The position numbers were made by a program, and so were the translations under genes. The notes beneath the pieces are model-generated. The model saw nothing but the letters and a program-made list of their open reading frames with translations, did no database searches and had not been told where the DNA came from. This document shows, piece by piece, positions 60,901 to 63,900 of a stretch of 64,000 nt of DNA; within the stretch, counting starts at the first letter, position 1, and each line of letters opens with the position of its first letter. Location: assembly GCF_036370855.1 (NCBI RefSeq), contig NC_088103.1:8929404-8993403 (forward strand), read 5' to 3'. This stretch comes from Dromaius novaehollandiae (taxonomy: Eukaryota; Chordata; Aves; Casuariiformes; Dromaiidae).

Positions 60901-63900
60901 CCCAATAGGACTTTGCTGCATACAGTACAGTACAGTACAGTTTAGTTGACAGGGACTTGTAATTTCCTATGAACTTCATCTAGCCAAAGGTTATCCAAAG
61001 ATTATGTGTAAAATTCTTGCCCCTTCTTGTCGAGACAAAATACTGCTTTACTAGATGTTTGTGCTTTTCCTTTCACTGTAGGTAGCCAACTACGGCGTAG
61101 GAGGCCAGTATGAGCCTCATTTTGATTTTGGAAGGGTAAGTCCTATTTTCTGTCTCCACCTCTTTCTTCTTCACAAGCAATGTGTTTCTCTTTTTCAGGT
61201 GGCAAATTATGGAGTGGGAGGACAGTATGAACCCCACTTTGACTTTGCACGGGCAAGTAAAGAAATGGAGGAGAGATAGTAATCTGGTGAAGCCTAGGCC
61301 TCTTGGCTGCGGCACCATTTTTATTCTTCGATGTGTATTACACTTTGTAGTCCTTCAACTTTTCTAATCTGTGTTAGTGGAGAAAGCCCTCTAAACCACC
61401 AGCTGAACTGATAAACAATACAGGCATGATGGAGCAACAAGGTTTTTCTTCAGAAACATAATTTAAAAAGAGCTATTTCTAAGGAGATGACTGATTCTTC
61501 TCAACAGAGCAAAGGCCACTAGCTTCATTCTAAAACTAGAGAAATATTTTTGTTGGCCATGTAAAGCCCGTTTTGTTAAAGTCACTGAAGGCAGTGCAGT
61601 CAGACTGTACAATGCACAGGGTATGTCCTGTGTTCCTGACACACATGGGAGAAGACGGCAGCATCTGTGCACCGTAGCTACCATAGATGCATCTGCAGCG
61701 CAGGGCGCTGCTGAAGGCGGCTAGCCTGACGGTACGGGTGAGAGCTTAATGCCCTTTCCTGTGAGAAGGACTTCACGGGCAGGGTAGGAAAACTTGCCCT
61801 GCAGCTTACCGTGCAAGCGTGCGATGTGGGGAGAGAACTTCACCCCCCAGAGCTGAGACAGAGGCATCTTCCATACTGTTAAAGACATCTGAAAATATAA
61901 ATACTCTGTATTGTACTCCACATGCTGATTGCTAACAGACTACTGAAACTGCCAAAAGCCTACTAAGTTCTCCTCATCTCCCCATCCTTGCTTTGTTTAT
62001 TTGATTTAAATTCCTAACCTATTTCTGTTCCAGCTTAAACCTCAAATTGCTGGAAATAATGCCACTGAATTCAGTTGGTTATTTATTGGGCATACTTACA
62101 CATGATTTAACACCTTCAGATTAACCTTATGCTGTGAATCAACTCCACCAACTATTAATCAGAATCTCTGCTCTTTAAGCACATGCTCAAAAGCATTGCA
62201 AATGATTAACAGATTTTGGTTTGAAATGCATGGGTTAATTTCAAGAGTAATGACTGCTAAAATTTGAGCATAAATAGCGGCCACAGCGGGTGGGCTCTAG
62301 ACATAAAAATAAGATCCAACAAAAATTCATCTCATAAAAAAGTCCATCAAAATGGACTTTTGTTCTTTTAAGTAGAAGTGATTATAAAATGGCTACTTAC
62401 CAAAATGGATCTTTTGGCTACTTCGTTAGCCTGTTGCAAGCGTCAGCTCTGCTGCGCGCTCAGCTTCCTCCCTCTTTCCCCAGCTGTAATGAAAGGTAAC
62501 ACAGATGCACAGGCTGGAACGTGGAGGGGAAGAAGCCTCCCCTTTCAGCGCAGCACTGGGCTTGTGTATGCAGCGACAGAAAGGGTGTTCTCGTGCATTT
62601 AGGCAGGGATTACTTATTCCTGTTAAAAGCTTCAGGAATTACTGCCACAGGCACTCTGCAGCTGAGAGAGGGCACTGCTTAATGAATCCTGTCGTTAGAC
62701 TTTTAATGGCACTCAAAGGTGTGCGTGGGCCAGGGAGGAGTGCAGAATGCGGAAAGCCAAAGAGCTTAGGCGGCAGCATAGCTGGAGTGGCAGCCGTCAC
62801 GCATAGCTCCGCCGTGAGGTCAGAACGGCCGGGAGCAGGAAGGGGAGAGGGCTGTGCAGGCAGACACCCCGCAGCGAGCAGGGCTGGTGTGCTGCCTTCA
62901 GGGCGTGCGTGGAGCCCCTCCTGCGAGAGCTCTGGCCCTGGCACGAGTCCCAGTGACTCGGGACCCCAGCGCTGTCTCACTCGAGTTCATCTCTGGCAAG
63001 GACAAGAGGAGAGACGTGAGCGCAATTAAATAATTAAGTCTGTGGCTGTGAAGAGGATTTACATACTAATTTTCAGACAATAAAGTTGTTCTTAACCATT
63101 AGCAACTTGGGCTCATGCCTTCCCTGTCCTGTAGAGTTTAAAAATGCCTGCTTTATTTGAATTAATAGGTACACCCATATTGCATCCCCCCCCCCCAAAT
63201 GGAATGAATTCATTTTCTGCATGAGTTTGTCTGCTGCTGGCACTGCAGCTGTATGTCACTGACTCCTCTACATAATCAAAATGAAATGCTTATTAAATCT
63301 GCTTGCTTTTATTCACAGAAAGATGAGCCAGATGCTTTTAAGGAACTGGGAACAGGCAACAGAATTGCTACTTGGTTGTTTTATGTAAGTGGTATATTTC
63401 TGTCGTGTGCTATTGCCAAAAATATCTATCTCTGCATATTCTATACAGTTGAATGATTTCATTATTTTTTTTTTTTTAACTGAAGTGACTCGTAAATGAA
63501 GGTAGCCAGTAACTTAGTGGTAAATAGGGGTATCTTCTTACCCATAAATAATTGTTCTTACATGTGTTCCTAAGGAGGATTTAAACTGACTGTTCACTTT
63601 TATATCTGCAGAGGTATTTATAGCATGCTCGTTGCCAAAACATTTGAGCACGTAACATTCTGGGACAAGGCTGGCTATCCCACTTTGCACCAAGTGGGTA
63701 GTTTTTAGTCTTGTTTTATTAGGCTATTAGTCACACAGCCTTTGCTATCTAATGGGGAGGTAAAATTAAGTTTTTTGGTACCTTAGTTTTATTTTACTAA
63801 AATGTGGCACTTTGGGAATGCCTTGGCTTGCAACTTACCTGTGCTGTTTCCACCTTTTCAGATGAGCGATGTGTCAGCAGGGGGAGCTACTGTCTTTCCT

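Follow-up and report, generated by a model that had tools for sequence, protein, structure and literature searches.

Two adjacent exons of the collagen prolyl 4-hydroxylase α(I) gene, P4HA1, called here 12a and 12b, very probably form a mutually exclusive pair that goes back to the jawed vertebrates and exchanges the catalytic core of the enzyme. The pair is described from the emu genome, in a stretch of 64,000 nucleotides ("the window") within which the two copies encode the same iron-binding segment with a single difference, Gly or Ala at the second residue past the iron-ligand Asp. The evidence comes from the splice sites and divergence of the two copies, from the distribution of the Gly and Ala forms in annotated vertebrate proteins and from comparison with the paralogous genes of the same genome.

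The P4HA1 gene and its exon 12 pair

By its sequence, the gene in the window is P4HA1, as its exons are collinear with that gene and its best protein matches are bird P4HA1, with 98% identity to the proteins of Cygnus olor and Columba livia among the matches listed. It lies on the forward strand, with its first coding exon at 36823, and its collinear exons run on beyond the window, exons 15 and 16 being on L001; in this genome its coding portion extends over about 28 kb. Exons 9 to 16 are numbered as in the original prediction and the literature. All internal exons of the gene model have an AG acceptor and all but one, exon 12b, a GT donor, and each of the four combinations of exon 9 or 10 with exon 12a or 12b gives an open frame of 536 residues. 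Elsewhere in the window, a very GC-rich open frame of 304 residues on the reverse strand (29381-30295) is likelier to mark a CpG island than a gene.

Exons 9 and 10 are reportedly an alternative pair, described by Helaakoski in 1994. That the gene has a second tandem pair in addition was the central claim of the original prediction and is borne out, as the 54-nucleotide exons 12a and 12b, 63 nucleotides apart, each have their own acceptor and donor (Table 1).

Table 1. Features of P4HA1 in the window
Feature	Position	Strand	Remarks
Exon 9	51564..51634	+	Known alternative pair, hairpin loop (PMC9676403, in part)
Exon 10	52700..52770	+	Known alternative pair with exon 9
Exon 11	59248..59347	+	Neighbor upstream of 12a
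Exon 12a	61082..61135	+	54 nt, phase 0-0, Gly form (...HFDFGR), 18 residues, donor GTAAGT
Mini-intron between 12a and 12b	61136..61198	+	63 nt, 73% pyrimidine, in frame, no stop
Candidate branch-point A (TTCAC)	61173	+	Sole yUnAy match in the mini-intron; inferred
Exon 12b	61199..61252	+	54 nt, phase 0-0, Ala form (...HFDFAR), 18 residues
Exon 12b GC donor (gcaagt)	61253..61258	+	Rival GT 4 nt downstream, at 61257
Exon 13	63319..63384	+	22 residues; corresponds to the exon that is duplicated in P4HA2
Exon 14	63862..63930	+	Gene model

The splice sites of the two copies are of unequal kinds. Exon 12a is entered at ctgtag| and left at AGG|gtaagt, and exon 12b is entered at tttcag| and left at CGG|gcaagt, a non-canonical GC donor on which the original prediction was silent; the in-frame junction ARKDEPDAF to the normal exon 13 requires this GC site. 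The candidate branch-point A is 37 nucleotides from the 12a donor and 25 from the 12b acceptor. Equal length, equal phase and separate splice sites, which mark mutually exclusive tandem-duplicated exons, are all found in the pair. Because joint inclusion of both copies, or omission of both, preserves the reading frame, mutual exclusion cannot depend on decay of frame-shifted messages.

The peptides of the two copies are identical at 17 of 18 residues, and Gly versus Ala is, as had been claimed, the sole difference. What this segment does can be read from the C-P4H-II active site, in which Tyr421 serves 2-oxoglutarate, Gly422-Pro429 form the catalytic loop, His430, Asp432 and His501 are the iron ligands and Tyr427 corresponds to a substrate-contacting tyrosine of the algal enzyme (PMC9676403, in part). 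Placed on the P4HA2 sequence, the 54-nucleotide exon covers all of these except His501. By homology with C-P4H-II, exon 12 would thus hold the whole βI-βII catalytic loop and two of the three iron ligands, and the Gly/Ala site, at which P4HA2 has Ser, would lie where the chain departs toward the βII-βIII substrate loop. An mRNA with neither copy would specify an enzyme devoid of the catalytic loop and of two iron ligands. An AlphaFold model of the Cygnus protein P0006 (29 sequences) had a mean pLDDT of 53.4, falling to about 27-29 around HxD, and was set aside.

Age and constraint of the duplication

The DNA of the two copies shows 13 differences in 54 positions. Twelve of these differences are synonymous, accounting for all of the 12.0 synonymous sites, versus a single difference across 42.0 nonsynonymous sites. 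When 13 random substitutions were simulated in 300,000 trials from each copy, an outcome of no more than one amino-acid change was never obtained. Of the 40 flanking nucleotides on either side, only 10 match, and the best ungapped six-frame match to the 18-mer in the window outside 61082-61252 reaches 8 of 18. Near-zero nonsynonymous against saturated synonymous divergence, together with conservation across clades, argues that both copies are under selection. The earlier claim of an old duplication kept under strong protein constraint therefore holds up, and a recent duplication or an assembly artifact is rejected, since the flanks are unalike and the synonymous sites saturated.

The copies differ from the P4HA2 HxD exon of this genome by 13 and 11 nucleotides, about as much as from each other, so that 12a and 12b seem to date from around the time when P4HA1 and P4HA2 separated, a date that synonymous saturation prevents from being made finer.

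Comparison with the P4HA2 and P4HA3 genes

The P4HA2-like and P4HA3-like genes sit on contigs other than that of P4HA1. In P4HA2, at about 21.30-21.32 Mb of contig C15, a single HxD exon was found, and the runner-up match within the 30-kb stretch had an E value of 0.94. The HxD exon is followed by a tandem pair composed of RPFDSTLKSEGNRLATFLNY (60 nucleotides) and a 22-residue exon (66 nucleotides), which are separated by an intron of 66 nucleotides and correspond to exon 13 of P4HA1. The original prediction had placed the P4HA1 pair at what appeared to be the same position as the P4HA2 pair; this was off by one exon, as what P4HA2 duplicates is the exon after its single HxD exon. Orthology of the two pairs was accordingly rejected: it would call for a duplicated βII-βIII-loop exon in P4HA1, and the P4HA2 pair matches the single exon 13. 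Judged by sequence, the two pairs are neighbors, not homologues. This agrees with the known splice variants, which alter the hairpin loop in C-P4H-I and the βII-βIII loop in C-P4H-II (PMC9676403, in part).

A second exon 13 was sought in P4HA1 introns 11, 12 and 13, and nothing convincing was found in them. With these three short introns as the database, the best hit (ERDTFK..., intron 11, 60485-60541) had an E value of 0.005; it matches over six residues, stands alone and lies upstream of exon 12, and was put down to chance. In the P4HA3-like gene (contig C1), the parts corresponding to exon 11 and to HxD lie within one uninterrupted reading frame. A search of the same genome for the PF13640 family gave three matches, with no P4HA gene around them. 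The 66-nucleotide intron of the P4HA2 pair is a tight spacing nearly equal to the 63 nucleotides between 12a and 12b.

Distribution of the Gly and Ala forms across vertebrates

Protein searches took the best 120 of 2535, 120 of 2571 and 120 of 2082 matches, together 265 distinct representatives of a database clustered at 90% identity, in which minority forms inside a cluster, or ranking below the best 120, would be hidden. The first 148 representatives make up the clade tally and the further 117 come from the teleost search; clades were assigned by the printed species names, and all counts in this section are of the matches listed.

Both forms occur from cartilaginous fishes to birds. The chondrichthyan representatives comprise 21 Gly and 9 Ala, the amphibians 14 Gly, 8 Ala and 1 Thr, and the squamates 11 Gly and 3 Ala; there are 2 Gly and 1 with both among turtles, and 1 Ala and 1 with both for the crocodilian. 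The 49 bird representatives divide into 19 Gly, 15 Ala, 7 with both and 8 without the HxD motif. Monotremes have 1 Gly and 1 Ala, the coelacanth 1 Gly, the lungfish 1 Ala, and the 'lgn' proteins 1 Gly and 2 Ala. Four of four marsupials are Gly and ten of ten placentals Ala. The six ray-finned fishes in the first 148 are Gly only (one of the six has two Gly copies), as are 116 of the 117 further teleost-search representatives, the remaining one having no motif. That placentals have Ala only and ray-finned fishes Gly only is thus a statement about representatives among the matches listed, which included no lamprey or hagfish.

Counted by species, both forms were found in 11 of 32 motif-bearing birds, 2 of 16 chondrichthyans, 1 of 11 squamates, 1 of 3 turtles and the one crocodilian. 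Among 21 amphibians, Microcaecilia has Gly and Ala, and Xenopus laevis has Gly and Thr, the latter probably representing its two subgenomes, as the contigs differ in size. In the whale shark, isoforms X1 and X3 carry Gly and X2 and X4 carry HHDFAR; all four are on identically sized contigs and evidently derive from one contig. On the same ground of identically sized contigs, both forms apparently come from one gene in Heterodontus, Hemicordylus, Microcaecilia and Serinus, and in Hemicordylus the annotation includes each of the four combinations of exons 9/10 with 12a/12b. Exons 9 and 10, too, are a very old pair, as LRRATISNP and LKRATVHDP both occur in shark and ray isoforms.

The peptide of 12a is nearly invariant across clades, the Gly form being the same in chondrichthyan, ray-finned, coelacanth, amphibian, reptile, monotreme, marsupial and bird representatives. 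That of 12b varies: the loop Val is replaced by Met in amphibians and a viper, and sharks, salamanders and squamates have Tyr or His within HxD. The constant difference between the copies is the residue two after the Asp.

The simplest history compatible with these sequences is a duplication before the jawed-vertebrate ancestor, after which placentals probably lost 12a and ray-finned fishes 12b. Of the two origins first proposed for the pair, an ancestral arrangement kept in birds and an independent duplication, the ancestral one fits better, but the arrangement is far older than birds, both forms being annotated in cartilaginous fishes. We take the time over which the pair has been preserved to be perhaps 450 million years. 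The sturgeon protein P0137 (Acipenser) has two tandem HFDFGR motifs, both Gly, which may reflect conversion, a separate duplication or an annotation error.

Annotated and transcript-like products

Annotated isoforms with one or the other of 12a and 12b exist in many species, and many of these isoforms are predicted models. The 'lgn' protein P0044 (Gly; nearest squamates) comes from a contig of at most 2868 nucleotides and P0099 (Ala; nearest frogs) from one of at most 2545 nucleotides. Given a gene of about 28 kb, these contigs are too short to contain the introns and look like assembled cDNA; P0074 (Ala), a third 'lgn' protein, is placental-like. The original prediction was to fall if one of the exons was used in no bird transcript or if a copy was broken in close relatives; judged by annotated isoforms only, neither is the case.

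Other annotated products depart from single use of the pair. Proteins of 575-580 residues that retain the mini-intron, with similar translated sequence, are found for six bird representatives and one tortoise, and may be products of unspliced RNA. One alligator and one sturgeon protein, both hypothetical-protein entries, have two tandem copies. In four bird representatives of 517-518 residues (P0029, whose cluster has 39 members, P0032, P0037 and P0043), both exon 12 copies are cleanly skipped; such isoforms would be inactive and unable to bind iron.

A further anomaly surrounds exon 12b. Among the matches listed, AN or AS replaces KDEP after the Arg in 10 of 59 Ala forms versus 0 of 206 Gly forms; eight of the ten are from birds, one from a viper and one from a frog, and seven of the ten read ANEPDAF. 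This reading is reproduced in the window when the GT 4 nucleotides downstream of the 12b donor is joined to an AG 4 nucleotides into exon 13. We infer that these odd models stem from gene predictors avoiding a GC donor, and the ARAN/ARAS footprint suggests that the GC donor of 12b is common to more species than emu.

A model of exon choice and its alternatives

The ~50-nucleotide steric threshold for the distance from a branch point to a 5' splice site, which enforces the exclusive use of two OGDH exons (PMC7969005, in part), offers a model for the pair. Within the 63-nucleotide mini-intron, a branch point that leaves about 15 nucleotides to the acceptor would fall below this threshold, as does the candidate at 37 nucleotides from the 12a donor, so that the joining of 12a to 12b would be inefficient and each mRNA would carry one of the two. 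The GT donor would favor 12a, and the GC donor would render inclusion of 12b weaker and tunable. At the protein level, the Gly/Ala exchange, together with the Met in the loop and the Tyr or His inside HxD of 12b in some lineages, could alter the flexibility of the loop and hence the kinetics, although in emu the swap possibly has no kinetic effect. Placental mammals, retaining 12b, and ray-finned fishes, retaining 12a, would then have resolved the pair reciprocally. Human introns of 43-65 nucleotides can be spliced (PMC8363638, in part), so the 63-nucleotide gap does not strictly forbid joining of 12a to 12b. A yUnAy scan of the 66-nucleotide intron of the P4HA2 pair gave candidates only at 52, 57 and 62 nucleotides from the donor, none below the threshold. 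In the mouse, the choice between P4ha1 exons 9 and 10 (there 9a/9b) responds to U2AF1 isoforms, PTBP1 and SRSF7 (PMC6821156, in part).

The same features could have been retained for the control of splicing, in that a strong exon next to a weak one with a GC donor would yield mRNAs that are frame-shifted or lack exon 12, Gly versus Ala being nearly neutral. The GT 4 nucleotides past the GC donor would indeed shift the frame if joined to the normal exon 13, and of the bird representatives without the HxD motif among the matches listed (8 of 49) four are clean skips of exon 12. Yet skipping needs no second copy, and the difference between Gly and Ala (or Thr) has been kept from sharks to birds despite saturated synonymous sites; the further active-site changes in 12b of sharks, salamanders, squamates, amphibians and a viper likewise point to protein function. 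Retention for splicing control is for these reasons considered unlikely.

More improbable still is that 12a, the mini-intron and 12b make up a single exon of 171 nucleotides, the middle 63 being coding, and encode an extended protein in which HxD occurs twice. The in-frame, stop-free mini-intron and the annotated proteins of 575-580 residues are what such an exon would give, but a run of 21 pyrimidine-rich codons is readily free of stops, unspliced pre-mRNA is a simpler source of these proteins and the sandgrouse version, labeled low quality, leaves the frame. A donor opens the mini-intron and an acceptor closes it, with a branch-site-like motif and a pyrimidine-rich tract between them, and 12a and 12b each occur singly in isoforms across clades. 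We give least credence of all, and very little, to the view that one copy, likeliest 12b, is a useless relic or the pair a recent copy or assembly artifact. A non-canonical donor and the unusual gene models at 12b, which make up 10 of the 59 Ala forms among the matches listed, might be expected of a relic, but not a pair in which every synonymous site differs and yet only one residue; the unalike flanks exclude a recent copy, and Ala is the sole form in the ten placental representatives among the matches listed and is present in sharks. A mutually exclusive pair that changes the protein remains the preferred reading.

Implications and comparison with known systems

A broader interpretation is offered tentatively, as plausible but short of probable: a Gly/Ala switch in the iron-binding core, present throughout jawed vertebrates, and in sharks, salamanders and squamates extended by His or Tyr within HxD, would tune the response of the enzyme to oxygen, iron, 2-oxoglutarate or substrate, and would have been overlooked because placentals and ray-finned fishes lost opposite copies, leaving human, mouse and zebrafish each with one exon on display. 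How stable collagen is depends on collagen prolyl 4-hydroxylase, an enzyme under study as a target in fibrosis and cancer. Exchanging two of three iron ligands along with the catalytic loop, the pair would amount to a natural experiment on one active-site residue, and it may account for conflicting models of bird P4HA1 in databases. The apparent reciprocal loss and the position at the iron site set it apart from ordinary tandem exons.

In the open-access literature, searched by title and abstract and with most subscription journals outside its scope, no paper describing the P4HA1 12a/12b pair was found, and the term P4HA is absent from the main text of PMC9741552, on human tandem exons. The two characterized splice-variant pairs of collagen prolyl 4-hydroxylase change substrate loops (PMC9676403, in part). 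If the interpretation given here is true, exon duplication has, with P4HA1 9/10 and P4HA2 12a/12b, struck all three flexible active-site loops named in that paper.

The nearest relatives of the pair are found in the same gene and its paralog. P4HA1 exons 9 and 10 are also tandem homologous exons in the catalytic domain, used one per mRNA and with both forms in shark and ray isoforms. Unlike 12a and 12b, from which exon 11 separates them, they are 71 nucleotides long, differ at 29 of 71 nucleotides and 8 of 23 residues, are spaced by 1065 nucleotides and encode a hairpin loop. The P4HA2 exons 12a/12b, reportedly described as an alternative pair by Nokelainen in 2001, resemble the P4HA1 pair as tandem exons of a paralogous gene that encode an active-site loop across a mini-intron; they differ in being the next exon (the βII-βIII loop), in their unequal lengths of 60 and 66 nucleotides and in having no HxD. 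A mechanistic parallel is offered by OGDH exons 4a and 4b, which are exclusive, as modeled here for 12a and 12b, through branch points too near the upstream 5' splice site of a short intron, whereas they concern the calcium sensitivity of 2-oxoglutarate dehydrogenase and have an intron of 118-131 nucleotides, in birds and mammals (PMC7969005, in part).
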